64,000 nucleotides of DNA from Branchiostoma lanceolatum (lineage: Eukaryota > Chordata > Leptocardii > Amphioxiformes > Branchiostomatidae), in the NCBI RefSeq assembly GCF_035083965.1, contig NC_089726.1:14947501-15011500 (forward strand). The letters are read 5' to 3'. The notes under the pieces are model-generated. The model made no database searches and was not told the DNA's origin. It saw nothing but the letters and a program-made list of their open reading frames with translations. Of the stretch, positions 1,991 through 28,318 are shown piece by piece. A program made the position numbers and the translations under genes. Numbering within the stretch: the first letter of the stretch is position 1; the number at the start of each line of letters is the position of its first letter.

Positions 1991-2354
1991 TATAGATACT
2001 GCATTATCACATGCTACTATTGGCATTTTTTTATATGTAATTTATCAAAAGAGCAAAACAACAACAGTTCTAATATGTTGTAACCTAGTAGTTCGAAAGT
2101 AAATTTTAAAAACGAAGAGACAATCACTTGCACAAAAAAAGAAGGTATAAAACTACACATAGAAGCTCAGGCTGCATTGCTGCTAGTGCTATACCATTGA
2201 ACTAAGAAAAGTTATCAGCTGGAGTTTTTTTCAGTGCTACTACTAGTGTATGCCTCTGAAAAATCATAATCATTGCATGTTCAGAACATGAGCTATCAAA
2301 ACCGCAGGTTCTGCAGCAATACCAACGAAAACAGCTAGGAGACCGGGCCGTAAT

Positions 2355-3677
2355 CTAACCTAAGCTTTGTCCGACTCGTCGGAAGATGTTGTCGGCTGCG
2401 TTCACACCCCATACTTGGTTGCTGCTAGAGCTGATGTAAACTTCTTTCAGAGCTCCTTGGATCAGCTGCCAGCTACTGCCTTGTGGTGTCCCAGCATTTA
2501 AACCTGTAATGACAAAGTAAAAAATGTACTAATCAATCATAGACCATCGTCAAGGGGACACCCAGAGAAGCGAGTAAGCTGTGGATGTGCGTTATCAAGT
2601 TACAACTGTTCAGAACAGACAAAAAGACTGAGATTCAAACTAGAAGATTGACTGACTTTCAGTTGTTTCAGACAATCATGTACTTTCCATAGTGCTCTTT
2701 CTTGTATGATATCTTACTCTTCAATGCTAACGTTACATATAGTATAAACATAGAGGAGCATACCGCGTCGTATGTAGATCTGGTTGTTGCTGTTGACACC
2801 CCAGACCTCGCCATTTCCTGACGAGATTTGTTTCAAGCCGCCGCTGACCTGTACCCATCCAGATCCAGGTGAAGCCTCATTACCAGCCGTTCCCGTGCGG
2901 TAGTAGATCTGGTCGTGTGTGTTCACTCCCCAAACGCCGGCTCGTCCAACCGACACGAATTTCAGCCCCCCATCGATTCGCTGCCAATCTGTTCCTGTAG
3001 GTATATATACCAGAGAGCACAGGTATCAAAACAGAGCACAAGTTTCATTGGATTTCCAACAAGTGTGTATGAATTAATGGCACAACTGATCGAAGCGGTA
3101 TCTCACCTGCTGGATTGCTTGCGGTGATTCCAGTTCGGCGATAAATGTTATCCGCGGAGTTTACGCCCCACACCTGATTGCTGGTGGGACTGACATGCAC
3201 CTGCTTCAGCTTTCCTGCAATCTGGCGCCAGCCTGATCCTTGAGGAGACCTTGAACCTATACCTATGGTATTAGAACATGGGATAAACACTTATGCGTCA
3301 GCGCTTCTGAGACAGAAAATCTTCAGAAATGGTGAGGATGCTATTGTTTTCTAGACTTCAAATGCATTTCCTCAGTTGCTGAATTTCACGAGCATAATGC
3401 ACTAGATCAGGGGAACAAGACAAGTTGACGATTGACAGACCTAATCGGAGATAGATATCATCATTGCTGTTGACTCCCCACACAATGTCGTTTCCGGATG
3501 AAATCTGTTTTAGGGCGCCATCGATGCGTACCCAGCCCGTGCCCAGAGAGGCTTCGTTCTTGTAAGTTCCAGTTCTGTAGTAGATCTGGTCGCCACTGTT
3601 CACTCCCCATACCCCCGATGGCCCAACCGACACGAACTTCAGCCCTCCATCAATTTGTTTCCATCCGGTTCCTGCAC
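2355..3677 (-). CDS. Third tectonin propeller cassette (4 exons, own stop)
   Basis: Exons 3677-3441, 3256-3107, 2994-2764 and 2503-2355 repeat the cassette once more with identical exon lengths and phase-1 borders. All four exons are open and the last ends in TAG at 2357-2355. Six VWGVN-type tectonin repeats are present. One difference is a first repeat of exon 2994-2764 reading TDWQRIDGGLKF, where the other two copies read TGWQQIDGLLKF. As with the middle cassette, no separate start exon is visible. The homologous stretch continues past the stop codon to about 2270, so the duplicated unit includes some 3' flanking sequence. Confidence 0.75.
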
Positions 3678-3993
3678 CTGTGGCGGAAGAGATGGATACA
3701 CCAAATTATGTCGTGATCTACCGTCAAGAATAGACAGAAACCAGGACTGAATACGTAGACCGCGATCAGCATTGAAAGTGCCTAAAAAAGGCAGGAGACA
3801 GTGAATAATCCATCGATGATATTCTCCTCCTAAATCATATGTATCCTGTGTATAGAAGTCCTATCATTGAAGAGGGTTCTTAGCTAAGATATTTCCTTAT
3901 TGGTAATTATCCGTTTGCCTCAGAACATGAGCTATCAAAACCTGACGTTCTGCTGCAATATCATAGAGAACAACTAGGGTACCGGGCCGTAAT

Positions 3994-5321
3994 CTAACCT
4001 AAGCTTTGTCCGACTCGTCGGAAGATGTTGTCGGCTGCGTTCACACCCCATACTTGGTTGCTGCTAGAGCTGATGTAAACTTCTTTCAGAGCTCCTTGGA
4101 TCAGCTGCCAGCTACTGCCTTGTGGTGTCCCAGCATTTAAACCTGTAATGAGAAAGTAAAAAAAATGTACTATTCAATCATAGACCATCGTCAAGGGGAC
4201 ACCCAGAGAAGCGAGTAAGCTGTGATTACTGTGCGTTATCAAGTTACAACTGTTCAGAACAGACAAAAAGACTGAGATTCAAACTAGAAGATGTACTGAC
4301 TTTCAGTTGTTTCAGACAATCATATACTTTCCATAGTGCTCTTTCTTGTATGCTATCTTACTCTTCAATGCTAACGTTACATATAGTATAAACATAGAGG
4401 AGCATACCGCGTCGTATGTAGATCTGGTTGTTGCTGTTGACACCCCATACCTCGCCATTTCCTGACGAGATTTGTTTCAAGCCGCCGCTGACCTGTACCC
4501 ATCCAGATCCAGGTGAAGCCTCATTACCAGCCGTTCCCGTGCGGTAGTAGATCTGGTCGTGTGTGTTCACTCCCCAAACGCCGGCTCGTCCAACCGACAC
4601 GAATTTCAGCAACCCATCGATTTGCTGCCAGCCTGTTCCTGTAGGTATAGAGACCAGAGAGCACAAGTGTCAAGACAAAGCACAAATTTCAGTGGCTTTC
4701 CAACAAGTTTGTATGAATGAATGTCTCGCCTAATCGAAGCGGTATCTCACCTGCTGGATTGCTTGCGGTGATTCCAGTTCGACGATAAATGTTATCCGCG
4801 GAGTTTACGCCCCACACCTGATTGCTGGTGGGACTGACATGCACCTGCTTCAGTTTCCCTGCAATCTGGTGCCAGCCTGAACCTTGATGAGACCTTGAAC
4901 CTATACCTATAGTATTAGAACATGGGATAAACACTTATGCGTCAGCGCTTCTGAAACAGAAAATATTCAGAAATGGTGAGGATGCTATTGTTTTCTAGAC
5001 TTCAAATGTATTTCCTCAGTTTCTGAATTTCACGAGCACAATGCGCTAGATCAGGGGAACAAGACAAGTTGACGATTGACTGACCTAATCGGAGATAGAT
5101 ATCATCATTGCTGTTGACTCCCCACACAATGTCGTTGCCGGATGAAATCTGTTTTAGGGCGCCACCGATGCGTACCCAGCCCGTGCCGGGAGAGGCTTCG
5201 TTCTTGTAAGTTCCAGTTCTGTAGTAGATCTGGTCGCCACTGTTCACTCCCCATACCCCCGATGGCCCAACCGACACGAATTTTAGCCCTCCGTCAATTT
5301 GTTTCCATCCGGTTCCTGCAC
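3994..5321 (-). CDS. Second tectonin propeller cassette (4 exons, own stop, no own start)
   Basis: Exons 5321-5085, 4900-4751, 4638-4408 and 4142-3994 have the same lengths (237, 150, 231 and 149 nt), phases and splice signals as the last four exons of the complete gene, and the reading frame is intact. They encode a full six-repeat propeller that ends in its own TAG. No signal-peptide or stalk exon lies between this cassette and the one at 5638-6960; only about 300 bases separate them. It is therefore either an alternative terminal cassette spliced from the shared 5' exons, an extension reached by skipping the stop-bearing exon 5786-5638, or a promoterless duplicate. Differences from the other copies are scattered substitutions such as IGGALKQ for IDGALKQ. 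Confidence 0.75.
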
Positions 5322-5637
5322 CTGTAGCGGAAGAGATGGATACACCAAATTATGTCGTGATCTACCGTCAAGAATAGACAGAAACCAGGACTGAATACGT
5401 AGACCGCGATCAGCATTGAAAGTGCCTAAAAAAGGCAGGAGACAGTGAATAATTCATCGACGATATTCTCCTCCTAAATCATATGTATCCTGTGTGTAGA
5501 AGTCCTATCATTGACGAAGGTTCTTAGTTAAGATATTTCCTTATTGGTAATTATCCGTTTGCCTCAGAACATGAGCTATCAAAACCTGACGTTCTGCTGC
5601 AATATCATAGGAAACAACTAGGGTACCGGGCCGTAAT

Positions 5638-8600
5638 CTAACCTATGCTTTGTCCGACTCGTCGGAAGATGTTGTCGGCTGCGTTCACACCCCATACTTG
5701 GTTGCTGCTAGAGCTGATGTAAACTTCTTTCAGAGCTCCTTGGATCAGCTGCCAGCTACTGCCTTGTGGTGTTCCAGCATTTAAACCTGTAATGAGAAAG
5801 TAAAAAATGTACTATTCAATCATTGACCATCGTCAAGGGGACACCAGGAGAAGCGAGTAAGCTGTGAATGTGTGTTATCAAGCTACAACTGTTCAGAACA
5901 GACAAAAAGACTGAGATTCTAGCTAGAAGATGTACCGACTTTCAGTTGTTTCAGACAATCATGTACTTTCCATAGTGATCTTCCTTGTATGCTATCTTAC
6001 TCTTCAATGCTAACGTTGCATATAGTATAAACATAGAGGAGCATACCGCGTCGTACGTAGATCTGGTTGTTGCTGTTGACACCCCAGACCTCGCCATTTC
6101 CTGACGAGATTTGTTTCAAGCCGCCGCTGACCTGTACCCATCCAGATCCAGGTGAAGCTTCATTACCAGCCGTTCCCGTGCGGTAGTAGATCTGGTCGTG
6201 TGTGTTCACTCCCCAAACGCCGGCTCGTCCAACCGACACGAATTTCAGCAACCCATCGATTTGCTGCCAGCCTGTTCCTGTTGGTATAAAGACCAGAGAG
6301 CACAAGTGTCAAGACAGAGCACAAATTTCAGTGGCTTTCCAACAAGTTTGTATGAATGAATGTCACGACTGATCGAAGCGGTATCTCACCTGCTGGATTG
6401 CTTGCAGTGATTCCAGTTCGACGATAAATGTTATCCGCAGAGTTTACGCCCCACACCTGATTGCTGGTGGGACTGACATGCACCTGCTTCAGTTTCCCTG
6501 CAATCTGGCGCCAGCCTGATCCTTGAGGAGACCTTGAACCTATACCTATAGTATTAGAACATGGGATAAACATTTATGCGTCAGCGCTTCTGAGACAGAA
6601 AATCTTCAGAAATGGTGAGGATTCTATTGTTTTCTAGACTTCAAATGTATTTCCTCAGTTTCTGAATTTCACGAGCATAATGCACTAGATGAGGGAAACA
6701 AGACAAGTTGACGATTGACAGACCTAATCGGAGATAAATATCGTCGTTGCTGTTGACTCCCCACACAATGTCGTTGCCGGATGAAATCTGTTTTAGGGCG
6801 CCATCAATGCGTACCCAGCCCGTGCCCGGAGAGGCTTCGTTCTTGTAAGTTCCAGTTCTGTAGTAGATCTGGTCGCCACTGTTCACTCCCCATACTCCCG
6901 ATGGCCCAACTGACACGAACTTTAGCCCTCCATCAATATGTTGCCATCTGGTTCCTGCACCTGTAGCGGAAGAAGTGGATACACCAAATTATGTCCTGGC
7001 CTACCGTCAAGTCATTAGATAGAAATATTATTCATGTATATTTCCATGCATGACTTACGGGTTGTTGAATAGACACATGTACAAAACAGGATTGAATACA
7101 CAGGCCACAATCAGCCTTTAATGAACCTTAAAAAATTCATTAGACATCAAATCTATGGATAATCGTCGCCAAATCATATGTGTCACTGGTATAAAAGTAC
7201 TATCATTGTACAGGGGGTTATTAGTTATGATAGATTCTCATTGATAATCATCTATAGGGCAGTCATTGATAAACACTGTGTCAGAAATTGTATTCTTGGT
7301 CCCCAGAATACACCTGCATATTCCTAAAAACAAACTAAACCAAGGTCATCTGCTGCGTGGGATCTTTTTACGATTCTTCAGGCAATAAGTTTTTCTCTGC
7401 GCAATGATTTGGAATTATGGTGCAAACATATAATAAAAGCTGACAAGCTGAATTGCTGAGTGCAGACATACTTACCAACACTTCTTGCTTCCTGCAAAAG
7501 TTTCTCTGCTGAAATGTGAGTTTGATTATTGTAAGCCGGATTTTTTACAATTCAATTAAAGTAGGTGGGCTGCAATACATTCATATTCAGTAGGCTTTCG
7601 ACGTGGCGACAACCCCAGTAGAATTAAGGATAGCAGAAGTCGCGAATAATTTAAAAGGGGAGAAATCTGTGGTCACAAAGGGTGTTATGATCACTAGCAT
7701 TTTAGTCGTCAGGGTTGCCATACCATCCACCCATTGACACTCCATTATCTTCAGCACCTTTGGAGTAAATGAATATTTCTAGTTCATAAACATACTTTTT
7801 ACTCCTATTCTTTACGAAACCTCTATTTACGTTCTCCAACATGATATCCATCAAACATGATTGACTATTGAATGGCGAAAATAGTCCATGCACCTTCTCT
7901 TCTTTTTAAGCTTATAGGATGAAAAATGCTTCTAATTATTGAGTTGAGATTTCAAGGAATCGATACGGTGCCGGTTTGAAACCAGGGCTAGGGAAAACTT
8001 GTTAATCTAAGCTCGTGTGTAACTTTCTTTAGTTAAGCTAATTGAATCGTCTACTGGTAAACTAACCAAGTCCATCCGTCGACAGTTCCCGTTCATCATC
8101 CTCAGTTATGCCTTTTTCCTCTTCTCCAGTCAGCTCTAAAATGAAAAGAAAACAAAGTGTACATCATTCGATGAGTCAAAGAGGCCAGTAAGAAAGATAT
8201 TGTAGCTACACCTCAAATCCCAAGAGGAGAAGTGGGCTACATATAATATTGAATGAAGCAGAATTATATAGAATGCCATGCACATTCTTTGATAATACAT
8301 TTGATTGATAGTACCTTGGAGCGTCTTCAACAGGTTTTCCGTTTTGTAGATTTCATCCGCGATACTGTCGTCTACCTCTCGGGGCACTTCTGCAGGCGAC
8401 GCGATCTTATCTGAAACATGGTTAATGAGACAATAAGCAAATAGTCTCCAATGGTAGTCTGTTACTGGCAACATTGGGACATTACGGCGTGGCTATTGAT
8501 ACCCTGTCAATAGTGAAACAAAGTAATTGACAGGAAGCACAAGAATGCCTTTTAATCAATAGGCAACCAATCAAAGCATTGGTGCAATGGCTCAGGGGTA

Positions 8601-9195
8601 GAGTGGCTGACTTGCAAGCCTACTATGTGGAAGGTCGGTGGTTCAATATTCGGCCACGACATTTTTTTTTGTTCTTTCATTTTCATAGTTAATTAATCAT
8701 TCTTCCACAGGAATGTAAATAAGTCTTACTTTTGCACTATTTTACAGGATCATCCTCAAGGCTAGGGATGTCAGAATCATGAATTGTTATTCACAAGATC
8801 ATCAATGGAACACCGTGTCGATAGTGCCAATACATTCTTACTGACAAGAACATCCTGTAAATACGTGTAGTGCAAAAATTTTCATTGACAGGAACATTCT
8901 GTCAATAGCCTCGGACTGATTTACTTTCTCGAAGCTTGGTGAGTATTCAAAAGACCGAGGGCCTCGGCCTTTTGAATACTCACCAAGCTTCGAGAAAGTA
9001 AATCAATGAATATTCAAATGTTCACATGTATTCTGAAAATCTCTCTTTCTTCTGTTAGAATTCCTCAATGTTGCTGAGCAGACACAAAGGATACAACCCC
9101 AGTTGTCAACTTCACGCACCTGGATATACTTCAGTTGCCGCCGTCTGTCCGACCAGGAACACAAGTCCCAGGGTCAGGAGCAGTTTGATGGCCAT
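5638..9195 (-). CDS. Secreted tectonin beta-propeller lectin-like protein, complete 8-exon isoform
   Basis: Joined minus-strand exons are 9195-9120, 8410-8315, 8135-8067, 7508-7476, 6960-6724, 6539-6390, 6277-6047 and 5786-5638. They sum to 1041 nt (346 residues plus TAG), every junction is GT-AG and phase 1, and the frame stays open throughout. Exon 1 begins MAIKLLLTLGLVFLVGQTAA, a clear signal peptide. Exons 2-4 give an acidic, probably helical stalk of about 65 residues. Exons 5-8 encode six tectonin repeats of the form W-x(n)-L-K-x(n)-VWGVN-x(2-3)-D/N-x-IYxR. Exons 5 and 7 carry two repeats each, and exons 6 and 8 one each, so the six blades look like a doubled three-blade half. Known relatives are horseshoe-crab lectin L-6 and fish-egg lectin, six-repeat proteins that bind sugars or bacterial surface glycans. 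Sugar binding here is inferred. The start is chosen because it gives the signal peptide. Two further propeller cassettes lie downstream. Confidence 0.85.
8590..8660 (+). mobile_element. tRNA-like sequence, probably a SINE head or tRNA pseudogene
   Basis: ATGGCTCAGGGGTAGAGTGG is a good box A / D-arm (GCTC pairs with GAGT). GGTGGTTCAATATTC is a box B, and TTTTTTTT follows as a Pol III terminator at 8664. The 5' and 3' ends do not form a convincing acceptor stem, so it is not called as a working tRNA. It lies in intron 1 of the tectonin gene. Confidence 0.5.
8918..9004. repeat. 87-bp near-perfect palindrome in intron 1 of the tectonin gene
   Basis: The 36-base arms 8918-8953 and 8969-9004 are exact complements (GATTTACTTTCTCGAAGC and onward). 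The centre CCGAGG-G-CCTCGG (8955-8967) continues the pairing except for one mismatch on each side. It lies about 115 bases from the exon 1 donor. Confidence 0.9.
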
Positions 9196-9359
9196 CTCAG
9201 GCGCACCTGATGACAAAAGACATGAGAAAACTTTAAATAATTACAACTTAAAAGCCAGACCTTTGCATTGAACTATTCTAATAAGGCGGCTAGTTATGAA
9301 GCTTTATATAGTCGTCAGGGCAAGAACAACAAACCCCGTAGAACAAAGCCCGAAGTTTG

Positions 9360-11099: not shown

Positions 11100-12735
11100 G
11101 GGTGGGGAGGCCCATCTGCTGGGCCAACCCCACCTTAAGCTGGTTGACTGAGCTTGATGTCACTAAGCTGGCAGGTAGGCAGTTCCACTCTGGCAGGTAG
11201 GCAGTTCTAGGAAGTAGCTCGCCCTGTATACTTCCGTACTACAGTGAAGGGTTTGGAAGCGGCGTGAGTGTCCTCGTGTTCTGTTCTGTTCGAGCGTTTG
11301 GCAGTGTAGTCTTGGTAAGGTATGGCAACTAGGTTATTGATTGATTTGAAAAGTAGGACTAGGCGTGTGAATTTCCTGCGGTCTTGCAAAGGCGGCCACA
11401 CTAGCTTGCTCAACAGCTGAGAGACACTGGTCGACTGTCTATAGTCGTTGAATACAAACCTGGCCGCTCTTCTCTGAACTGATTCTAACTTATCCTGTGT
11501 TGGATTGTGTGTTTCCACGTTTCAGTGGGTCCGAAGCTGAAGCCGCATACTCCAGCTTGGGTCTGACAAGTGCTGTATATGCCTTAGCCCTCACCTCTTT
11601 GGAAGCCCCCCTTATGTTTCGCTTCAGGAAACCCAGAGTACTGTTTGCCTTTGCAGTAATGGAGTTGATGCAGTGGGACCACTTGAGGTCCTAGCTGTGA
11701 TAATATGATCCCCAGGTATGGGTGTTGATCGTTGACCTCAAGCGGATCTGTGAACATTGTGTACATGTAATGAGGTGACTTTCGTGATTTCGTGATTTGT
11801 GAATATGTCGGATACAACATTTCTTTACGTTAAATCTAAGTTGCCAAGTGACTGAGTGTGTTCAAATCATTCTGAAGTATTTGCTGGTCCTGTACTAAGT
11901 GTATGGGACGGTATATGGGACAGTCGTCCGCAAAGAGTCGCAGTTGGGAAGATATACCTCTATCAATATCGTTTATACATCAAAGGAAAAGGAGGGGGCC
12001 TAGGATTGTTCCCTGGGGCACTCCTGACTTAACCTTGGTGGGTACCTGCTGGTGTCTGTGAAGTAGCCAATTCTTTATCCATCTCAGGTTCCCACTCTTA
12101 TACCATAGAATTCTAACTTATTAATCAGCCGGGTATGTGGGACACTATCAAAGGCTTTGTAGAAGTCTAGAATTGCCAAATCTATCTGACTGCCCTTGTC
12201 GAACTATGTCAGATCATGCAGGGTACGTATATAAGTTGGGATTGGCATGAGTGGTTAGCACTAGTACTACTTCTGTGGCATACTTTGTTCTCTGAGAATT
12301 CTGCAAGGAATGTGGTCTGGCCCTGCAGCTTTACGTGGGTCAATACCTTCTAGTAGTCTTTGGACCCCTTCAAGAGTGACACTTATTTCATGTCCTGACA
12401 GGGGCTTTCCTCTAATTCTGGTATATTGGAGAGATCTTCATCTGTGAATACTGATTTGTATTGCTGTTTGAGGGCTTCAGCTTTGGATTGGCTAAGCTTG
12501 TTTTGGTGTTTAAGGGGCGATACCCCTGTTGCTGTCTGTTTCTTACATTTCACATAGTTCAAAATTTCTTTGGTCTTCGAGAGCTTCGCTCATGATGTTG
12601 TTTAGGTATTCTGAGTGTGCTTTCTTGATTCTCTGTTTAACCAGGCGAACCATTAGCGCCTCCGGGCTCCACGACGTGCATAGATATGAAAGAAACCAGG
12701 TGTGTGTTGTGACTAGCTCCGAAGAAAATACCACT
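11100..12735 (-). mobile_element. Degenerate LINE (non-LTR retrotransposon) fragment, reverse-transcriptase region
   Basis: Read on the minus strand, the translated blocks are in the order expected for a CR1/Jockey-like ORF2: LVKQRIKKAHSEYLNNIMSE and GVSPLKHQNKLSQSKAEAL (12690-12480), then AFDSVPHTRLINKLEFYGI (about 12150), then LRLFADDC with the FADD catalytic motif (about 11940). The C-terminal ESVQRRAARFVFNDYRQ (about 11480-11430) is followed by PRTAYLPEWNCLPASLVTSSSVN, whose RT-x(n)-WN-x-LP pattern is typical of LINE C-termini (to about 11130). Stops and frameshifts interrupt the blocks and the endonuclease domain is missing, so it is a 5'-truncated dead copy. Confidence 0.8.
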
Positions 12736-12739
12736 CTTT

Positions 12740-15700
12740 AAAGAAGTGATGCAGGACTAGCTTTATCTTGTGTCAATCACCGTTGAAAACTTGGAGCGAG
12801 CTCGGCCTCAGATTTCATCTCAAAAAGGACAAAATGTATTCAGCTGTTTGATACAAAGAGCATTGGATCCCACGACCCCTTTGACCGTAGCTGTCAAATT
12901 TAATTAACACAATGGATTATAGCCGGATTTTTAGAAATACACCAGAACAAAAGAAGAACCGAACCTTGGTAGACGAAACAATAAAGCACTGTCTGATATG
13001 GTCCCTTTGGAATTTCGGGTATGAGTGACTCACTTGGCCTCGGGCAACCTTTTCTCTTTGGCGAGACTGTAAACAATCAGGATCGTATCTGCTCAAGATT
13101 AAACTTGACACAGATTTTCTTTCCAAAAGTACATGAAGATTGAATTTCACCACATTTCTTTCATGGCGTAATTGCTGCCATTTTCTCACGGATGATCGTG
13201 TGAATCGTCAGAAATGCAACATAGTTTTACTTGTAGATTACGCATTCGTGGTTCAGTGACCACACCAATCGACTCAAGAGATAGATCAGACGCGCGCCGC
13301 AGTCAATCACCACATAGCAACGCCACCCAGTCCATAGCAACTACAACTTGGAAGTAAGTGCGCTGATGACGGCATATAAGAAGATGGTCACAATCTTCCC
13401 AATCAACCTGTGCTTTTATGCGGCTCTCTTCAAACGCGGGACCTCCATTTAACGTCCTATCCAAACACCCTGCCACTGCGACACCGCGACGCCACTTTGC
13501 TTTGTAGTAGGTCTATTCTATAAATACATGGATGGGGTGACTAATATGAGACAGGCAACTCTACCACCCCGGCATTAGAGCCGCGAGAGCCGTCCGTGCG
13601 CATTGATGATATTGCCTTTTTTAAAAAGCTGTTATTACGTAATACATTGCCGTCGTGATCTGACGATCGGCGTATTCTACGGCAGTGGGCCTCCTTCATT
13701 TAAAACATACCAGAAACCTGAAAACTGGAAAACTACATGGGCATGCCAAATAAACGCAGGATCAAGGAAGAACAGATCTACTACCCGTTACTCGTTTTAC
13801 CTCCCCGAGACTCACTGCGCTTTGTTTAAAGCGTTCTGTTAGAAAGTATGATATTTGTGTAGCTTTTGTTCATAAGTGCCCGGATGATTTTGGCGACAGA
13901 ACTTTGGTGGCTACTGTTAAGAATTTTCGAACGCGGACGTGCACCCCTCCCATGTTCTTTGAAGCCGACAGAAGCACACCGCCAATGTCTACCGTGTATT
14001 TAACATGTACAATCATTACTGGTAACTTTTATGGAAAAAAAACGCCCGTTTGCTATATAAAAAAGTTATACTTTGAGGCAAATGGTCAATCCGAGATTTC
14101 ACCCGACCATTGGAAGTTGTACGCCAGTCCGCTATCGTTCCCTTCGGCGAAAAGACTGCTTAAAACAGTAACGTTCCTTCCTTCAAGGTCCCCAACTAAT
14201 CTCCATATAGATAATAACCTCTGTCTATGATTTGCAGCATTTTCATTCTAAAAGTACAGATTCTCAAATTCATAAGGCAAGGGAATAACGGGGGCCAAAG
14301 TCTTCGTTTGGGGATTATATTATTCCAGACTTTGTGTAAATCATGAGATAAAAGAAACGGCCAGAACTTACTTTTTCTGCTGGCTGCGCGCGGTGAAAGA
14401 AGTGTCTGAAGTGTTGCTTTCTTTTCCCAGACTGGTGCGCTCAGGGGCCAATCTAACAATTTATAGCAGTACATATACAAATTTTCTGCCAACCATCCAC
14501 AATATGCCTTTTAAGGAAAATGGTTTCTCCACACTTTGGTGATGGGGAGAACGCACTTCTATGATTGGCGAAAGAAACCTGGGGTAGAATATCGGGGAGG
14601 AGCTCAGGAAAGATTGCATCATTATCAGTAGATAGCGCGAACACGTTTTCAAGTTAAAAAGCAATCAACCGTCAGACACGATCTCAAGTGTACCGTAAAG
14701 TTCACCGTCTACTACACCGTCTAGGGGTAGGTATGTGTAAACAGGTAGACTTCACCGTCTACTACACAACAATGGAACAGCATCACCGTGAATCCGGTCT
14801 TTTCAATCAACACATACCAGTTGCAGCATGTGCCAAAAACCTGCCAAATGAAACTCTCTCTCTGAGAAGCACGTTTAGATGATAACGTTATCTTTATTTT
14901 AAGTTACAGAGCAGACTGCCAAGAAGTGATCGAAAAGCAAAATAGACTATAAAATTTAGATTTCTAACGTAATTTAGATGCAGTTTTTGTCACAGTGTGC
15001 AGAATATAGCCAACCTTCTTACCAGATACAAGCAGACTTTAATATCAAGCACAGTTTTCCATAAAATTTGGTTGCATGATTATATTGCATCATTTAACTT
15101 TTACGGGAAAATCATCATATTTAGACGGTTTAAGCCAATCATCATCAACTGTAGTCCCAGGCTGGCGGGGTTAGACTTTGCACAGCAACATCTCATCAAC
15201 CAATAAGATTACGCAAATGACGTCCTTAGTACGACATTATGACACCAAATTTTATTTCATTTGTACATCATCTTCTAAACATCTGGCAATGAGACAATAT
15301 AGAACTTTGAAGCCTTATTACCTTCGTCGACGAATGGTTTCGTCGAGAAGGTTATTCGATGATGCTTGTCTGTGTGTCTGTTAGTGAACAGAATAAGTCG
15401 AGCCTGAACGCCTGGATGGTTTGTTGTCGTAGTTGGTGTGTCGGTGTGTATGTGGGAAATCTCAAGATGATTAGATTTTGGGCGAAGTGTTTTGCATAAT
15501 TAACGAGAAAAGTGTAAAAATGTGTTACATTGTATGCTGAAGTATGTGTACGTGTCGGCTGTGTTTTTCCAAGGCGTCATGGATAGGGCAAGAAGGTCAT
15601 GAGGGGTCATGTTGAAGGCAGGAAACGTCAGTTACACAAATTGGCTGTGAGCCAGCTGTAGGCATAATGGTAAGGTAGTCTCCAAGCAGACCTATGGGTT

Positions 15701-17780: not shown

Positions 17781-17789
17781 ACCATCCGT

Positions 17790-18135
17790 CACCACCTTCT
17801 TGAGTTATTCTCTGTCACAGTCTGAAACAAGCCCTGGTCCTGCAGTTCCCATAAAGACGCCCAAACCTATGCCACTTATTCCCAAAGAGCTATCTACTAC
17901 TGAAAAATCAAGACCATGGCATGTCCAGAACACGGGATATAAAAACAGGAAGTTTCGCTGCAGTACCGTAACAAGCCGCTAGGGGGCCCAAAATCTAATT
18001 ATTTCCAGGTCTCTTTAAGACCTACCCACATATCAAAGCCAATACAATCCATTTAGGTCTTCTTGAGTTATGCTGTTCATCCAAACACACACATACACAT
18101 TCACATACATATATACACACATACATACATACTAA
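17790..18135. repeat. Diverged dispersed copy of the 300-bp repeat, ending in an AC/AT microsatellite
   Basis: GTCCTGCAGTTCCCATAAAG, AGGGGGCCCAAAATC, ACCTACCCACATATCAAAGC and CTTGAGTTATGCTG match the units at 52110-53040. The tail 18070-18135 is an ACAC/ACAT simple repeat, at the same place as the AC-rich spacer of the array. Confidence 0.65.
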
Positions 18136-18299
18136 CGCTACCCCAAACATAACCTTCTGGGCGAAGGTAAAAATACCAAATATCTGTCTGTGAAAGGTTG
18201 CACAAGCACAGGTCAAGCGCGGGAAACAACGGTGTACACCAACAGAATAAAACTGTTCTGATAAGACTGTTAAAAAGCCTAACCGGGAATTAACAGGCC

Positions 18300-18640
18300 T
18301 GTGGTAGTTCTGAGACCACACTTCTCTGATAGCAGGCTCCCTCGGTCTTGAGCTCCGTCGTTTCTTGTCTCCCAGCTCAGACTGTATTGGGCGGGGAGAC
18401 TGACTCAACTTTAAGAGACCGACTCAGTCCAAAATCATGCAAACAATATCTGTCATAGGGGTGTTTGGTTACTGCGCACTTGTCCCGATTTGCCCAACAA
18501 GAGCTGCCTGTGACCCATCACGAGCCTAGGTCATGAGCACCACAGGAAACGCCCCCGGGCGCAATGATAGACATGTAAGAAACCAGGTGTGTGCTGTGAC
18601 TAGCTTATTAAGGCTTAGGTATGTGTATACAGGTAGACTT
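18300..18640. repeat. Extra copy of the locus-upstream repeat
   Basis: 18310-18480 matches 26900-27075 (TAGCAGGC, CTTGAGCTCCGT-GTTTC, CCAGCTCAGACTGTA-TGGG, TTACTGCGCACT). 18487-18610 matches 10825-10860 (CAACAAGAGCT-CCTGTGAC) and then 12680-12720 (AAGAAACCAGGTGTGTG-TGTGACTAGCT). The second match is split in the left locus by the LINE at 11100-12735. Confidence 0.6.
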
Positions 18641-19499
18641 CAGCAGACTCCTGTTGGGTGGTACAAACATAGCAAATATCTGTCAAATTTAGCTATAGGA
18701 TGCCGAATGATTTGGCAGAAAGTTAGCTAGACGGAGGAGTGCCCTCACTTGGACCCTACACCTCTGTATCAGCTGACTAACTACTCTGGGAATCGCTCAC
18801 CCTATTGGCCAATTTCCCCAATCTTTCGACACTCAAAAGAGTCAGTTATATACTAGTGCACATGCAACTGTGGACTAATAATGCAGGGTTTCGTTTGTAT
18901 GTCTCCCGGTGTATCTCTATCACGTGGCGTATCTTATCCAGATTTATCTGAGAGACTCAATGTCAAAAGCAGATTTTAACTTATCTTTAGATGAGACAAC
19001 TCTGACAATGCAAAGATAGGCAAGTACATGAAATATTGCTTTGTCCTTTGGAAAGATACTGAAACACACGCCCAATCTAATTGCAACATGATACGGATTT
19101 ACTCATGTTAGCCTTTATTGCTTAGTAGATAGAATTTGAAGATGTATTGTGTATTTCGGAGTCAGTTGTGGAATCTCAACATCTCGCTCTCACAGGCACC
19201 ACAGTTGGCTGAAGACAGAGGTAGATGGTGAGGTCTTGTGAAACTAGTCGGCTCTATGCACCACGTGCAAAGGGGATGAGTGAGTGAGTGAGTGAGTTTG
19301 TACTGTTGGCCGCGTGCGAAAGTCACTGTATTGTTTGTTGTGACAAGAAAGCTTTTATATCCGAGGGATGGTTCCTTGAGGTAGCACCACTTTTCAGCAC
19401 AACTTGTCATTGAGGTAACACAACCCATTGTTACATTTCAATGATCTATAGAAAGACTTGTGTACTTCAGCATGTGGAAAACAACTTACTCGTATGGAG

Positions 19500-20345
19500 T
19501 AATGCTATGTTCATGACTCAATTCCTTCGCCTGTGACAGTTGTACAGCCAATGTGACCTATTATGATAGCAATAAGAAGGGAAAGCCAATGAAATGATAT
19601 AGAAATGAAAACACAACGACACTGCAGTTTTTAAACCATAACCTTTATTTTTGCATCTCTACCCCAATATATTTTATTTGAAGCCACCAAGCAAAAAAAA
19701 TCAATAGTAACGTTACATCCGATTTAAGAAGCAGACACGAAATATACTCGTCAACAAAGCTAGCTAGCTACATCTAATCGGATTGACAAAAATGGACTGT
19801 TTTCAAACTGTTGTATACACCCACTAACAAATCGTCTATCCTGTGTATGAACAATTTTACCTTTTCAAAGTTCCTAACATGAAATCCGCATGACCTAAGA
19901 TGTTATCTGTGTCCGAGGAAAGGCAATCAGATCCATCACTTAACATTCATTACACCAATAACCTGAACCAAAGAGTATCATAGACTAAAACAGTTGAATC
20001 AACCGTAAGATATCAAGAGTGCTTAATGTCTGCATAACACCAACCAATTTTAAAGTATCTCTACTTTTAAGCCCACTCGATCTTGTTATATGTTGATGAT
20101 ATGTTAGGGTTTGCCAGTAACTGGTTATCACCTCATATTCACAGGACGGCACCTATGCTATAAAGTTAATGTGCTTGCTATACCCCTAGTTGATGGTTAT
20201 GTTATGAAAATCCTAAGTCAACTACATGAGTATCAAATATTATAGTTTGATCTAGTTTGAACATCCATCCCTGAATATGTAGAAGAAATGGATTTCAATC
20301 ATACCGTGGTCTACCGTCATACCATTAGATAGAAACATTATTGTC
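19500..20345. repeat. 3' flank of the Methyltransf_FA locus, colinear with the tectonin-locus flank
   Basis: 19500-19680 matches 690-850 and 19855-20260 matches 1540-1960, in the same order. 20284-20345 (TGGTCTACCGTCATACCATT and AGATAGAAACATTATT) matches 6966-7035, the intron just upstream of the first tectonin cassette exon. It therefore looks like a relic of tectonin-locus sequence next to the other domain's array. Confidence 0.65.
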
Positions 20346-20479
20346 ATTATATTAACGTGTCCAAATTTCATGAATCAAAACGTCCACATTTTCTGACAAC
20401 TTGCGATGGAGCACCGTGAGTTCGAGAACGTGATACAAGCGTGTCAAGTTAGGCCTGTGTTGCATTGATTGTGCAAATA

Positions 20480-20496
20480 CCCCCCCCCCCCCCCCC
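20480..20496. repeat. 17-base poly-C tract
   Basis: The equivalent position in the other Methyltransf_FA cassette spacers reads TTACCCATCAAGG or TTACCCCCCAATG, so a short C run expanded in this copy only. Confidence 0.9.
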
Positions 20497-20866
20497 AGGC
20501 AACTATCAATGTTTGGGAGCGGGCCAAAAGCTAACAAGGCTGGACTCCAGGCTAGGTTTGGGGGCTTTTTTTCATATACAAGTAGCTCTCGAGGACATGT
20601 TATAGGTCTAGACCCTCTAGCAGCTTTTTTTTAATACGATGGGATTTTTGATTCAAACATTGGAAAACATTTTGGTCATGTTGCTATCTTAGATTATGAT
20701 TGATATAATGATATGGTAATTATACAACCCACCTTTTCTCAAGAGAGCCCAAGAAATATTTGTAACTGAAAAGTCGACACCTAAGCACATACCGAATACA
20801 TCAGAGATTCATCCACAGCTTCTCATCTGTTTTTTTACCACGTATAGAAAAACATATTGTCTTTGA

Positions 20867-21461
20867 TTAGAGTTCAAATTTACCCTCAGACAGAACGGAT
20901 TGGCAGAACTTCCACCGTCCAGTACTTCCCCAGCCAGTAGAGTATCCAGCATAGGCGATGGGAAGCGGGTCTGGGTCCGTCCACTGCATGAACGGCTCAG
21001 TTTCATCACCCTTCCCAACAGCGATGGTTCCGTCTGAAGACCATGTTATCCAGAAGGCTCGGTACTCTGTCGGAGAGTTGATTCCTGAGAGCAAAGAAAG
21101 AAATAAGCTCATAAGAACGATGTACTACCAAGGTGGTCACATACAAATTTGACCTCCTTGGTACTACCAAGGACCAGAAGCTCAAAGTTCTCCATAACAG
21201 TATGAAGGAGGTTTACAGACTTACCAGGTGTTGAGACAGTCGCATGGTTGTTGCCTTGCTTGCTGCGGCGTATGACAGACTGGGTGTTACGCCAGCCACC
21301 GAGGACAATTTCATACATGGCGTCCAGGTCCTGGTTCTGGGATGACAGAGCCACATGGGCGTCGTTGTTGGCCTGTACCTCAAACGTGAAGCGAGATACA
21401 GTCAGTGGCGGCAGATTCCAGCGGTACCGGTACTGGGTGTCCGTCTCGTAATACTCACAAA
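20867..21461 (-). CDS. Methyltransf_FA cassette 5 (3'-most, probable terminal exon)
   Basis: Exons 21461-21225 and 21084-20884, with read-through to a TAA at 20869-20867 giving the C-terminus SEGKFEL. No homologous exon follows downstream, so using the stop rather than the GTAAAT donor is the simplest end of the gene. The end WKFCQSVLSEG differs from WKFCPSARPDG in cassettes 1-4. The first half is nearly identical to cassette 3. Confidence 0.75.
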
Positions 21462-24400
21462 CTGTATGAACACAAACACTCATTTGACTACTTCCCCAAA
21501 TGTTTTCAGGTCTTCATGTCAGTGTGTACCGGTTGTAACGAAGAGCGGAAAAGGTTCAAAACAGTATGAATGCATTTCTTACTTAAATATGTTATAAACA
21601 TTTACGTGTCCAAATTTCATGAATCAAAACCTCACCATTTTCTGTCAACTAGCGATGGAGCACCGTGAGTTCGAGCACTTGATACGAGCGTGTCAAGTTA
21701 GGACATTGTCGCATCAATTGTGCAAATTACCCATCAAGGCAACTAGCGATGTTTGGGAGCGGGCCAAAAGCTAACAAGGCTGGACTCCAGGTTAGGTTTG
21801 GGGCTTTTTTGCAGATACAAGTAGCTCTGGAGGACATAATACAGGTCTAGACCCTCTAGCAGCTTTTTTTCAGTACAATGAGATTTTTGATTGAAACGTT
21901 GAAAAGGTATAATCATTTCGGGCACGTTGATATCTTAGATTATGATTGATACAATGATATGGCAATTATAGAACCCACCTTTTCTCAAGGGAGCCCAAGA
22001 AATATCTGTCACTGAAAAGTCGACGCCTAAGCACATACCAAATACGCCACAGATTCATCCTCAGCTTCTCATCTGATTTTTCTACCACCTATAGAAAAAT
22101 ATATTGTCTTTGATTAGAGTTCAAAGTTACCATCAGGCCGAGCGGATGGGCAGAACTTCCACCGTCCAGTACTTCCCCAGCCAGTAGAGTATCCAGCATA
22201 GGCGATGGGAAGCGGGTCTGGGTCCGTCCACTGCATGAACGGCTCAGTTTCATCACCCTTCCCAACAGCGATGGTTCCGTCTGAAGACCATGTTATCCAG
22301 AAGGCTCGGTGCTCTGTCGGAGAGTTGATTCCTGAGAGCAAAGAAAGAAATAGGATCATCAGAACGATGTACTACCAAGTATCAGAAGCTCAAAGTTCTC
22401 CTTAACAGTATGAACGAGGTTTACAGACTTACCAGGTGTCGAGGCCTTCGCATGGTTGTGGCCTTGCTTGCCGCGGCGTATGACAGACTGTGTGTTACCC
22501 CAACCACCGAGGACAATTTCGTACATGGCGTCCTGGTCCTGGTTCTGGGATGACAGAGCCACATGGGCGTCGTTGTTGGCCTGTACCTCAAACGTGCAGC
22601 GAGATCCAGTCAGTGGCGGCAGATTCCAGCGGTACCGGTACTGGGTGTCCGTTTCGTCATACTCACAAACTGTATGAACACAAACACTCATTTTACTACT
22701 TCCCCAAATGTTTTCAGGTCTTCATGTCAGTGTTTACCGGTTGTAACGAAGAGCGCAAAAGGTTCATGAACAGTATGAATGCATTTTTTACTTAAATATG
22801 TTCTTGACATCAACGTGTCCAAATTTCATGAATCAAAACCTCACTTTGTTCTGGCAACTAGCGATGGAGCACCGTGAGTTCGAGCACTTGATACGAGCGT
22901 GTCAAATTAGGACATTGTCGCATCAATTGTGAAATTACCCATCAAGGCAACTAGCGATGTTTGGGAGCGGGCCAAAAGCTAACAAGGCTGTACTCCAGGT
23001 TAGGTTTGGGGCTTTTTTGCAGATACAAGTAGCTCTGGAGGACATGATATAGGTCGAGACCCTCTAGCAGCTTTTTTTAGTACAATGAGATTTTTGATTG
23101 AAACGTTGGAAAGGTATAATCATTCGGGGCATGTTGATATCTTAAATTATGATTGATATAATGATATGGCAATTATAGAACCCACCTTTTCTCAAGAGAG
23201 CCCAAGAAATATCTGTCACTGAAAAGTCTACACCTAAGCACATACCAAATACATAACAGATTCATCCACAGCTTCTCATCTGATTTTTCTACCACCTATA
23301 GAAAAACATATTGTCTTTGATTAGAGTTCAAAGTTACCATCAGGCCGAGCGGATGGGCAGAACTTCCACCGTCCAGTACTTCCCCAGCCAGTAGAGTATC
23401 CAGCATAGGCGATGGGAAGCGGGTCTGGGTCCGTCCACTGCATGAACGGCTCAGTTTCATCACCCTTCCCAACAGCGATGGTTCCGTCTGAAGACCATGT
23501 TATCCAGAAGGCTCGGTACTCTGTCGGAGAGTTGATTCCTGAGAGCAAAGAAAGAAATAAGCTCATAAGAACGATGTACTACCAAGGTGGTCACATACAA
23601 ATTTGACCTCCTTGGTACTACCAAGGACCAGAAGCTCAAAGTTCTCCATAACAGTATGAAGGAGGTTTACAGACTTACCAGGTGTTGAGACAGTCGCATG
23701 GTTGTTGCCTTGCTTGCTGCGGCGTATGACAGACTGGGTGTTACGCCAGCCACCGAGGACAATTTCATACATGGCGTCCAGGTCCTGGTTCTGGGATGAC
23801 AGAGCCACATGGGCGTCGTTGTTGGCCTGTACCTCAAACGTGAAGCGAGATACAGTCAGTGGCGGCAGATTCCAGCGGTACCGGTACTGGGTGTCCGTCT
23901 CGTAATACTCACAAACTGTATGAACACAAACACTCATTTGACTACTTCCCCAAATGTTTTCAGGTCTTCATGTCAGTGTGTACCGGTTGTAACGAAGAGC
24001 GGAAAAGGTTCAAAACAGTATGAATGCATTTCTTACTTAAATATGTTATAAACATTTACGTGTCCAAATTTCATGAATCAAAACCTCACCATTTTCTGTC
24101 AACTAGCGATGGAGCACCGTGAGTTCGAGCACTTGATACGAGCGTGTCAAGTTAGGACATTGTCGCATCAATTGTGCAAATTACCCATCAAGGCAACTAG
24201 CGATGTTTGGGAGCGGGCCAAAAGCTAACAAGGCTGGACTCCAGGTTAGGTTTGGGGCTTTTTTTGCAGATACAAGTAGCTCTGGAGGACATAATACAGG
24301 TCTAGACCCTCTGGCAGCTTTTTTTCAGTACAATGAGATTTTTGATTGAAACGTTGGAAAGGTATAATCATTTCGGGCACGTTGATATCTTAGATTATGA

Positions 24401-26692
24401 TTGATACAATGATATGGCAATTATAGAACCCACCTTTTCTCAAGGGAGCCCAAGAAATATCTGTCACTGAAAAGTCGACGCCTAAGCACATACCAAATAC
24501 GCCACAGATTCATCCTCAGCTTCTCATCTGATTTTTCTACCACCTATAGAAAAATATATTGTCTTTGATTAGAGTTCAAAGTTACCATCAGGCCGAGCGG
24601 ATGGGCAGAACTTCCACCGTCCAGTACTTCCCCAGCCAGTAGAGTATCCAGCATAGGCGATGGGAAGCGGGTCTGGGTCCGTCCACTGCATGAACGGCTC
24701 AGTTTCATCACCCTTCCCAACAGCGATGGTTCCGTCTGAAGACCACGTTATCCAGAAGGCTCGGTACTCTGTCGGGGAGTTGATTCCTGAGAGCAAAGAA
24801 AGAAATAGGATCATCAGAACGTTGTACTACCAAGTATCAGAAGATCAAATTTCTCCTTAACAGTATGAACGAGGTTTAAAGACTTACCAGGTGTCGAGGC
24901 CTTCGCATGGTTGTGGCCTTGCTTGCCGCGGCGTATGACAGACTGCGTGTTACCCCAGCCACCGAGGACAATTTCGTACATGGCGTCCTGGTCCCGGTTC
25001 TGGGATGACAGAGCCACATGGGCGTCGTTGTTGGCCTGTACCTCAAACGTGAAGCGAGATCCAGTCAGTGGCGGCAGATTCCAGCGGTACCGGTATTGGT
25101 TGTCCGTGTCGTCATACTCACAAACTGTATGAACACAAACACTCATTTCGCTACTTTCCCAAATGTTTTCAGGTCTGTATGTGTTTACCGGTGGTAACGA
25201 AGAGTGCAAAACGTTCATGAACAGTATGAATGCATTTCTTACTTGAATATGTTCTTAATATTTACGTGTCCGAATTTCATCGATCAAAACCTCACCATTT
25301 TCTGGCAACTAGCGACGGCGCACCGTGAGTTAGCACTTGAAAGGAGTGTGTCAAGTTAGGACATTGTCGCGTTAATTGTGCAAATTACCCCCCAATGCAA
25401 CTAGCGATGTTTGGGAGCGGGCCAAAAGCTAACAAGGCTGGACTCCAGGCTAGGTTAGGGGGCTTTTTGCAGATACTAGTAGTAGCTCTCGAGGGCATGA
25501 TATATGTGTAGACCCTCTAGCAGCTTTTGTTAATACAATTGGATTTTTGATTGAAACGTTGGAAAAGTATAATCATTTTTGGAATGTTGATATCTTTGAT
25601 TCTGATTGATATAATGATATGGCAATTATACAACCCGCCTTTTCTCAAGAGAGCCCAAGAAATATTTGTCACTTAAAAGTCTACACCTAAGCACATACCA
25701 AATACATAACAGATTCATCCACAGCTTCTCATCTGTTTTTTGACCACGTATAGAAAAGCATATTGTCTTTGATTAGAGTTCAAAGTTACCATCAGGCCGA
25801 GCGGATGGGCAGAACTTCCACCGTCCAGTACTTCCCCAGCCAGTAGAGTATCCAGCATAGGCGATGGGAAGCGGGTCTGGGTCCGTCCACTGCATGAACG
25901 GCTCAGTTTCATCACCCTTCCCAACAGCGATGGTTCCGTCTGAAGACCACGTTATCCAGAAGGCTCGGTGCTCTGTCGGGGAGTTGATTCCTGAGAGCAA
26001 AGAAAGAGATAGGATCATCAGAACGATGCACTACCAAGAATCAGAAGCTCAAAGTTCTCCATAACAGTATGAACGAGGTTTACAGGCTTACCAGGTGTCG
26101 AGACCTTCGCAAGGTTGGTGCGTTGCTTGCCGCGGCGTATGACAGACTGTGTGTTACCCCAGCCACCGAGGACAATTTCGTACATGGCGTCCAGGTCCTG
26201 GTTCTGGGATGACAGAGCCACATGGGCGTCGTTGTTGGCCTGTACCTCAAATGTGAAGCGAGATCCAGGCAGTGCCGGCAGATTCCAGCGGTACCGGTAC
26301 TGGGTGTCCGTCTCGTAATACTCACAAACTGCATGAACACAAACACTCATTTCGCTACTTTCCCAAATGTTGTTGGGTCTCAGTATGTGTTGTACCGGTT
26401 TAACGTGCAAAAGGTTCATGAACAGTATGAATGCATGTCTTACTTAAATATGTTCTTAATATTAACGTGTCCAAATTTCATGTGAAAGCTGTGATAAGCT
26501 AGATTCACAAGTTTCCCCTAGTTTCAAACCAAGAAACAATATAGTGCGGGTTTGAAACTAGAGAAAACACGTTCATTCAAGCTCGTCGTCATTCAAACTT
26601 CCTTTAGGTTAAACAGTTAATGGAATGATGACAAATAATAATAAACTAACCAAGTTCCTCAGCCATGCCTCTGTTCACTTCTCCAATCAGCT
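20867..26692 (-). CDS. Multi-domain Methyltransf_FA (farnesoic acid O-methyltransferase-like) protein, 5' end not found
   Basis: A 42-nt stalk exon (26692-26651) is followed by five cassettes of two exons each (237 and 201 nt). All junctions are GT-AG and phase 1 and all frames are open. Each cassette encodes one Methyltransf_FA domain (PF12248 family) of 146 residues. The first exon carries the beta-rich half with dAHVALSSQNQ and YEIVLGGW-NTQSVIRR, and the second carries FWITWSSDGTIAVGKGDE and YAGYSTGWGSTGRWKFC. Despite its name the fold has no proven methyltransferase activity and is a common extracellular module in invertebrate mosaic proteins. If all cassettes are joined the product has about 730 residues of repeats. 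The last exon can read past its donor to a TAA at 20869-20867. The stalk exon is homologous to exon 3 of the tectonin gene. No signal-peptide exon was recognised upstream to 30000. Confidence 0.7.
22114..22669 (-). CDS. Methyltransf_FA cassette 4
   Basis: Exons 22669-22433 and 22331-22131. It differs from the other copies in reading SRCTFEV for SRFTFEV, which adds a cysteine at a conserved aromatic position. Its introns pair with cassette 2. Read-through of the final donor gives NFEL and stops at 22116-22114. Confidence 0.75.
23321..23915 (-). CDS. Methyltransf_FA cassette 3
   Basis: Exons 23915-23679 and 23538-23338. The protein variant is YEIVLGGWRNTQSVIRRSKQ, shared with cassette 5. The short intron between the two exons contains an extra stretch (about 23585-23635) with a self-complementary ACCAAGG/CCTTGGT motif that occurs only in cassettes 3 and 5. 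Read-through of the last donor stops at 23323-23321. Confidence 0.75.
24569..25124 (-). CDS. Methyltransf_FA cassette 2
   Basis: Exons 25124-24888 and 24786-24586, both open and phase 1. It carries the variant DTDNQYRYRWNLPPLTGSRF and QNRDQDAMYE. Read-through of the final donor gives NFEL and a TAA at 24571-24569. Introns and spacer match cassette 4 closely, at a distance of about 2455 bases. Confidence 0.75.
25773..26328 (-). CDS. Methyltransf_FA cassette 1 (5'-most)
   Basis: Exons 26328-26092 and 25990-25790. The first begins VCEYYETDTQYRYRWNLPAL and the second ends RPDG at a GTAACT donor. Without splicing at that donor the frame reads NFEL and stops at 25775-25773. This is the most diverged copy (PALPGSRF for PPLTGSRF, KQRTNLAK for KQGHNHAK), as expected for the edge unit of an array that expands internally. 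Confidence 0.75.
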
Positions 26693-28120
26693 CTAAAATG
26701 AAAAAAAATACATAATTTTAGAAGTCAGATACACACACACACAAACACACACACACACACGTGCACTGTGACACACACACACACCAATGCGGTTTACACA
26801 CACACAACGGCAGCCTGACGGATGACAGCGTTTGTCATAATTAAGCAGCTAGCTCCCAAATCAACATGGGAGATGATATCTAAAGGCGTCTGACCGTAAT
26901 CAACAGGGGTAGTCTGAATCCACACTCCGCTGTTAGCAGGCACCTTCGGACTTGAGCTCCGTTGTTTCCGGGTGTCTTCCAGCTCAGACTGTACTGGGTG
27001 GGACAAGCTTAACTTAGAAGGTCTGCCCAGCAACAAAAGCAAGGTATGTGATAGGGTTTTTAGTTATTGCGCACTAGTATTGATAATGAAGACGTATGTC
27101 CTGCGCAATACCCCTATGTCAGACTCCCTCGTTTTACCCGACTGTCCGTTCTGGGTCGTTAAATTCGCGAGCGCCACACCTAACCATCGCCTACGGGAGT
27201 TGTGACGGGCATATCATGTGTTGTGACTTGCTCCGAAGAAAATTTCACTCTTTAATACGGGACAAAAAGTTAGCACCATTTCATATTTACCATCTGTCGT
27301 TATAAAAGCGATCTTCGTTGCAGAATACACATCAAAAAGGACAAAATACCATCAGCTGCTTGTAACAGTGAGTATTAAATCCCACGACCCCGTGCCCTTA
27401 GCTGTCATTTTTCACACTATGAATTATGAACGGTGGTTTCAAAATACATCAGGCCATACCACCTTAATTTTATGGATGACATCCTCTGGAGTCCACAAAA
27501 CTAATGCGAGAGGGCGAAAAAATAAAAAAACTAGCAAAAAAAAAAGATGATAAACCGGAGGACTACATAGCTGGTATTACAAATTAAACCACAGAACACA
27601 GTGTAACAAACAAACAAGTCTTTATTTGTTTGAATCAGCTCATATCAAAGTGCTTTTAACATGGATGATGCCTGGTTTAAAGACCCATATGTAACATTTG
27701 GCCGTTCAAAGAAAAAAACAAAATGTGTTCGGCTGTGTACACAACATCATGCCTTCTGTTAGAGCAAAACATCAAGCTCTGTAGGCAACCCAGCCAGAGA
27801 TAATATCATCCAGTTTAATACAGACATGTACAATGATAGTATTGTCATATCAGGAACAAAATTTCGGAGCCTCTTCGGAGGTGATTTTTTTTTTGGAGAA
27901 CGGACGAAAATCAATGCGCGCGCGGATGTCATCCATAAAATTAAGTTGGTGTGGCCTCAGAACAAAACAAAAAAAAAACTGGCCGTACACAAATTGATTA
28001 TGCGGTTACCTTGGAACTTGGGTGAATCACTTGCATTAACCTGTACTAACCTTTCTCTTTGTCTCTTTGTCCAAAAATACATGCGGGCTGATACTGTCAC
28101 ATGTATCTTTTATCTCAACT
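26530..28120. repeat. 5' flank of the Methyltransf_FA locus, homologous to the tectonin-locus flank
   Basis: 26545-26710 matches 7966-8150, including a stalk exon and its intron borders. 27230-27450 matches 12715-12950 (TGTGACTTGCTCCGAAGAAAAT, ATCAAAAAGGACAAAAT, ATCCCACGACCCC). 28000-28100 resembles 13000-13140. An AC microsatellite (26731-26815) interrupts it. No signal-peptide exon was found here. Confidence 0.65.
26731..26815. repeat. (AC)n microsatellite
   Basis: Interrupted ACACAC tracts lie upstream of the Methyltransf_FA stalk exon, in the place where further 5' exons would be expected by homology with the tectonin gene. Confidence 0.9.
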
Positions 28121-28236: not shown

Positions 28237-28318
28237 AACCAACCAGCCAACCAATAAACCAACCAACCAACCAACCAACCAGCCAGCCAACCAACCAACC
28301 AACCAACCAACCAACCAA

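Follow-up and report, generated by a model that had tools for sequence, protein, structure and literature searches.

Two loci with different arrays in a lancelet cluster

The DNA analysed here is a 64-kb stretch of the lancelet Branchiostoma lanceolatum (contig NC_089726.1, positions 14,947,501 to 15,011,500; this whole stretch of 64,000 nucleotides is called the window), which is eukaryotic in look, with spliced genes. Its left 28 kb contains two predicted minus-strand loci, one with an array of tectonin repeats and the other with an array of Methyltransf_FA domains (PF12248). Flanking noncoding sequence is shared by the two loci in the same order, as expected of tandem duplicates of which one has had its head replaced. 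All DNA comparisons were made within the window. The features of the tectonin locus are as follows.

12653..12951, minus strand: block P, upstream noncoding sequence (blastn E 6e-24)
9120..9195, minus strand: predicted signal-peptide exon, 25 whole codons, ending in phase 1 at a strong donor
8315..8410, minus strand: predicted stalk exon 1, charged, phase 1-1
8067..8135, minus strand: stalk exon 2, common to the Methyltransf_FA locus, phase 1-1, within block S (7953-8163)
7476..7508, minus strand: predicted stalk exon 3, phase 1-1
6952..7048, minus strand: block J, acceptor end of the intron that precedes the first tectonin exon, matching 20268-20359
2281..7025, minus strand: tectonin array, three units of six repeats, every unit made up of four phase 1-1 exons (from alignment and exon reading)
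662..2080, minus strand: block F, 3' flank, split by a 478-bp insertion (996-1473)

Candidate signal-peptide exons were scored on both strands of the window; three reached the cut-offs, and exon 9195-9120 was the strongest of them. The stalk exons, including the charged exon 8410-8315, were picked partly by eye among 16 listed candidates, some of which scored higher. Stalk exon 3 lies inside the interval 7953-7048, which has no counterpart at the Methyltransf_FA locus. When joined, the predicted tectonin exons encoded 860 residues without a stop, with a TAG stop (2355-2357) directly behind the last splice donor and every internal exon in phase 1-1. The three units measured 1.64, 1.64 and 1.46 kb, the last being shorter, and were 94-95% alike. 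Two side observations concern noncoding parts of this locus: the 478-bp insertion contains two direct repeats of about 104 bp that are 74% alike, and a long near-perfect hairpin, seen by eye, lies at 9004-8917 in the intron after the signal-peptide exon.

The signal peptide, stalk and first unit together matched PF19193 with an E value of 1.6e-112 and 374.6 bits (cut-off 30). A tectonin unit of 255 residues was similar to the fish-egg lectin structure 4RUQ (E 6.5e-28, best stretch 43-136) and, over nearly its full length (query 5-251), to Tectonin 2 (5FSB, E 9.7e-27), which we take to be six-bladed. Six WGVN cores were counted per unit by reading. An earlier note on this DNA had described a single six-repeat lectin propeller. 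The six repeats hold for each unit, but the array consists of three tandem units, and three propellers are predicted instead of one because each unit has six cores and nearly full-length similarity to Tectonin 2. Neuropilin-1 accounted for nine of the 11 PDB matches of the tectonin unit; these were weak (E 0.001-0.009) and were set aside. By analogy with fish-egg lectin, the product is most likely a secreted multivalent glycan-binding lectin with its heads on a charged stalk, in which secretion, any oligomerisation and binding are put forward from the predicted exons and this likeness.

The features of the Methyltransf_FA locus are as follows.

27217..27458, minus strand: block P (blastn)
26873..27231, minus strand: block Q, common to a relic copy at 18620-18260 (blastn, profile)
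26651..26692, minus strand: stalk exon of 42 nt with AG and GT borders, phase 1-1, correct as the earlier note had read it
26511..26568, no strand: inverted repeat at the left border of the array, two 20-nt arms, 90%
20352..26481, minus strand: Methyltransf_FA array, five units, each with exons M1 (237 nt) and M2 (201 nt), phase 1-1
20268..20359, minus strand: end of a tectonin-type intron, including its acceptor, immediately following the array (blastn)
19487..20266, minus strand: block F, 3' flank (blastn)

Methyltransf_FA domains had been proposed for this second array, and can now be specified as five units of 1.22-1.27 kb, in each of which M1 and M2 make one PF12248 domain. The profile match was made with the first spliced unit (positions 6-136 of 140, E 1.5e-45), and the other four units were assigned by alignment only. 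All ten exons were open with AG and GT borders. The part of the array scanned contained no other Pfam domain, and the search by sequence for a solved relative of the domain gave no convincing result (a single match, E 0.55). The stalk exon 26651-26692 was 27 nt shorter than exon 8135-8067, a difference that keeps the frame, and 35 of its 42 nucleotides were alike, compared with 67 of 98 in the intron downstream and 12 of 16 upstream. Its splice sites agreed with those of the tectonin locus at 12 of 12 positions (acceptor) and 9 of 10 positions (donor). The exon contains an in-frame ATG in GGCATGG, which is presumably a good start context. A protein started there would be about 740 residues long and would lack a signal peptide, by hand count from the exon coordinates.

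For pooled pairs of tectonin units, the nonsynonymous and synonymous differences per site (pN and pS) were 0.015 and 0.079, respectively; for the Methyltransf_FA units they were 0.034 and 0.050 (pN/pS about 0.7). Divergence among the Methyltransf_FA units was 1.1-5.3% in exons and 2.7-12.0% in introns. The five coding units were stop-free and of one length, and whole units were 3-11 indels apart per pair. Both arrays look coding, since pN was lower than pS and since, in the Methyltransf_FA array, the exons were less diverged than the introns and the coding units stayed open and equal in length despite the indels; the Methyltransf_FA array would seem to be under weaker or changing constraint. 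Units 3 (23915-23338) and 5 (21461-20884) were 1.1% apart in exons and 7.0% apart in introns, which hints at exon-level exchange between units or at a two-unit duplication.

Shared blocks, partial copies and array borders

Five matches between the two loci had been reported in the earlier note, and all were re-found by blastn at nearly the same positions: 662-995 with 19487-19801 (67%, E 9e-30) and 1474-2080 with 19802-20403 (66%, E 1e-49) in block F, 7953-8163 with 26529-26722 in block S, which holds the shared stalk exon (66%, E 8e-9), 12703-12951 with 27217-27458 in block P (68%, E 6e-24), and 6952-7048 with 20268-20359 in block J (72%, E 1e-5). The last confirms the claim that a piece of tectonin-type intron stands beside the Methyltransf_FA array. 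The block F match runs past 20351 into the domain array, and its true end is likely at about 20266. All five matches are on the same strand and in one order, except for the block J piece, which precedes the tectonin array at one locus and follows the Methyltransf_FA array at the other. Eight matches were observed at E<1e-3, compared with none in 60 dinucleotide shuffles, which set the chance level. Six control comparisons between other segments gave 14 matches (0, 0, 0, 12, 2 and 0), none in the matched blocks; all came from two other repeats, 9359-10149 with 51001-51908 and 18020-18152 with 52313-52752. A coding role for blocks P, Q and F was rejected, as stops were found in all three minus-strand frames (two copies of each block, the block F copy at 1-519 being left out).

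Three further features belong to the same cluster.

27451..27957, no strand: element of 507 bp, bounded by 34-nt terminal inverted repeats (94%) and confined to block P at the Methyltransf_FA locus
17900..18620, minus strand: relic copy, the tail of block P and block Q at 18620-18260, then a tectonin tail at 17998-17900 (blastn)
1..519, minus strand: second copy of block F, 1-403 matching 19869-20266 (64%, E 4e-32)

When the element was left out, the homology of block P resumed beyond it, to about 13062 at the tectonin locus (364 columns, 66%, E 3e-30), and the tectonin locus has an apparent empty site near 12950. The shared blocks are thus older than the element, since it interrupts a homology that continues on its other side and its site appears empty in the other copy. 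In the relic, block Q matched with E 1e-19, and 17998-17900 matched 2358-2256, the sequence after the last tectonin exon (E 3e-8). The relic has no head, and its tail homology starts almost exactly at the former splice donor. The block F copy at 1-519 may be the 3' flank of yet another copy, the rest of which would lie beyond the window. At 10858-10709, small fragments of the upstream block (E 3e-4) and of the 3' flank (E 7e-7 by blastn, E 0.075 by profile) lie side by side. Together, these partial copies point to a tandem family with dead members and not to a single duplicated pair. The old tandem duplication claimed in the earlier note is borne out by the ordered same-strand matches (64-72% identity), by the additional partial copies and by the mobile element present in one copy only.

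The intron remnant at 20268-20359 fitted the intron before tectonin unit 1 best, with 43.6 bits compared with 31.6 for unit 2 and 30.0 for unit 3. Tectonin-type noncoding sequence occurs at three sites: the tectonin locus itself, the edge of the Methyltransf_FA array, and 17998-17900 in the relic. In the opposite direction, a DNA profile and a protein search of the tectonin locus, including the interval 7048-7953, revealed no convincing Methyltransf_FA remnant. Tectonin was therefore probably the ancestral head, because noncoding traces of it survive at the Methyltransf_FA locus as well as in the relic, while no convincing reverse remnant was found.

At the left border of the array, stalk-intron homology breaks off near position 26529, and an inverted copy of that intron follows immediately. 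The two 20-nt arms of this inverted repeat matched at 18 of 20 positions; shuffled sequences reached 15 at most, and none of 120 reached 18. Template switching leaves scars of this kind, and we infer it for this border. At the other end, the array and the tectonin-type intron share a few A/T bases where they join, too few to weigh. The exon phases at the borders of the swap are symmetric, being 1-1 in all predicted internal exons of both models.

Probable history of the cluster and rival explanations

From the blocks, their order, the exon phases, the open frames and the remnants, we infer the following order of events and transcript structure. The left 28 kb would be a minus-strand tandem cluster derived from one tectonin-lectin gene with a signal peptide, a short charged stalk and a tectonin head. 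After duplication, one copy would have retained the outer frame, that is, the upstream block, one stalk exon and the 3' flank, while phase 1-1 Methyltransf_FA exons took over the stretch that runs from a stalk intron to the intron preceding the first tectonin exon. The tectonin array would have been lost from this copy, with the intron end alone surviving. Each head would then have multiplied where it stood, giving three units of tectonin and five domains of Methyltransf_FA, and the Methyltransf_FA gene would encode a repeat protein on the remains of a tectonin stalk. As the breaks lie inside introns between phase-1 exons, the frame is kept whichever exons meet. We give this tandem duplication followed by intron-bounded head replacement with phase-1 cassettes a probability of roughly 0.72. 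The idea that the whole C-terminal domain was exchanged through phase-1 exon shuffling holds for the swap of arrays between shared introns and for the phase-1 modules throughout, but not as a single step: at least two changes are needed, namely substitution of the array for some 0.9 kb ahead of the first tectonin exon and loss of the tectonin array.

Several results weigh against this reading, and some of them bear on whether the Methyltransf_FA exons instead landed in a dead tectonin copy, where the stalk exon would be a fossil outside the transcript and the array would have its own start or be decaying. The gene models of both loci are predictions from sequence, including the joining of exon 26651-26692 to the Methyltransf_FA exons. 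Judged by eye, each of the seven base changes that separate the two copies of the stalk exon is non-synonymous, so this exon may or may not be coding, and nonsynonymous divergence (dN) exceeds synonymous divergence (dS) in two of the ten pairs of Methyltransf_FA units, with the overall pN/pS given above pointing the same way. On the minus strand at 26.49-30.45 kb, the single candidate for a signal-peptide exon, 29169-28956, was weak and was judged not signal-like; the other candidates in the window, 51952-51892 and 55328-55061, lie far upstream past other genes. Blastn found no DNA match at the Methyltransf_FA locus to the signal-peptide exon or to stalk exons 1 (8410-8315) and 3 (7508-7476), and a protein search says little here, as it missed even the known stalk exon. 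The stretch beyond the 507-bp element matched weakly when taken alone (E 0.009). Introns of the Methyltransf_FA units weakly matched the repeat at 16022-16098 (E 0.002 and 0.003, blastn); as a Methyltransf_FA remnant, however, this sequence reached an E value of 0.58 by profile and was taken as chance or repeat. A tectonin exon start after the surviving acceptor, also sought, did not exceed chance, with 129 of 2000 shuffles and 227 of 3540 window pieces scoring as high. Against insertion into a dead copy stand the preserved splice sites and phase of the stalk exon, its indel of a multiple of three, the ten intact Methyltransf_FA exons and the in-frame ATG from which the 740-residue protein could start. 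We regard such an insertion as possible but doubtful. The earlier suggestion of a secreted family is made likely at the tectonin locus by the strong predicted signal-peptide exon, of which no convincing counterpart was found at the Methyltransf_FA locus; the product of the latter could be secreted if spliced to an unrecognised upstream exon, possibly outside the window. A role in pathogen binding, which the earlier note thought possible, is conjectural. A bolder extension of head replacement appears rather unlikely to us: the frame would be a socket for interchangeable heads, brought in by intron template switches as phase-1 cassettes between a constant upstream block with stalk and a constant 3' flank, and each multiplying in place, and the Methyltransf_FA copy would have lost its signal peptide, taken its start from the stalk exon and acquired a cytosolic product.

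The remaining explanations concern the relation between the loci. An ancestor with a stalk, Methyltransf_FA and tectonin could have been duplicated and each copy could have lost one head, with no replacement. The tectonin-type intron end after the Methyltransf_FA array is where a downstream tectonin head would be expected, but no convincing Methyltransf_FA remnant was found in the tectonin locus, the relic carries tectonin-type sequence only, and the left border of the array is an inverted-repeat junction; differential loss is accordingly improbable. The earlier note had itself raised the possibility that the matches reflect a high-copy dispersed repeat, which would make them uninformative on gene duplication, and the cluster does contain mobile elements and repeats (27451-27957, 9354-10149 and 15708-16441). 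Block profiles run across the whole window with filters off, however, gave no copy beyond 28.5 kb better than E 0.02 (best E 0.022, 62675-62709), so the blocks do not recur elsewhere in the window in both orientations. They also share orientation and order, and one of them contains an exon with its splice sites, while the real dispersed repeat of the window has far copies in both orientations. We consider this explanation very unlikely. Equally hard to credit is one long gene in which the Methyltransf_FA exons splice to the downstream tectonin stalk exons, giving a two-headed protein. The same strand, the fitting order and phase 1 throughout would allow it, but the tectonin locus has its own signal-peptide exon, and the 3'-flank block and the relic copy intervene. 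Head replacement after tandem duplication therefore remains our preferred account.

Among the other features of the window, the dispersed repeat family occurs at 9354-10149, 15708-16441 and 50893-51912 in both orientations, with tandem units of about 127 bp in the last. An AACC microsatellite of about 66 units lies at 28237-28502. A Rab43-like gene is located on the plus strand at 30451-33333 (its last exon being closest, among solved structures, to Rab-43, E 7.5e-13) and serves as a landmark for the orthologous locus; a WD40-repeat gene is on the plus strand at 56600-57539. The genes at 40.9-41.9 and 46.9-47.7 kb had no Pfam or PDB match. Scans of the window detected no tRNA genes or Rfam families at gathering thresholds, and the NCBIfam search gave no match.

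Comparison with known systems

The tectonin unit resembles fish-egg lectin (4RUQ/4RUS) and Tectonin 2 (5FSB/5FSC) in its WGVN repeat core. In contrast to these proteins, three units stand here in tandem in one predicted frame, behind a signal peptide and a charged stalk.

Methyltransf_FA (PF12248) has been reported in sea-star footprint adhesive and shell-matrix proteins and in abalone shell UP5 (PMC9382459, PMC6003135), as well as in CPAMD8 (PMC9363628). PMC9382459 calls the function of the domain in mollusc proteins and its role in sea-star footprints unknown, and the name is no proof of farnesoic acid O-methyltransferase activity. Unlike the footprint proteins, UP5 and CPAMD8, the array described here has five near-identical tandem copies and stands at what was probably once a tectonin locus; its scanned part shows no additional Pfam domain, and no convincing signal peptide goes with it. 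No paper on a pairing of tectonin and farnesoic acid domains was found in open-licence PMC, and none was recognised among the related matches listed.

The VIgL family of snails (FREP, CREP and GREP) likewise combines one N-terminal scaffold with alternative lectin heads; in these proteins the scaffold consists of Ig domains, and fibrinogen, C-type lectin or galectin serves as the head (PMC5433772). The lancelet loci differ in that the evidence comes from intron remnants among tandem copies and that a single short exon is all the protein sequence they have in common. If the cluster varies between related species or individuals, it would offer a natural system for watching the exchange of heads on a constant frame.

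Domain swaps are usually inferred from protein architectures. In this cluster the remnants of introns, the array borders and a sister copy that is dead can still be made out, which allows a case to be made for the direction and order of one event. For lancelets, a high rate of 1-1 phase exon shuffling of domains has been reported (PMC4284660); this is a genome-wide statistic, while the present case is a single event read with its borders. The mechanism is of a known kind (PMC4284660), and the case is a good new instance of it that stands out by how much of the event is still legible.

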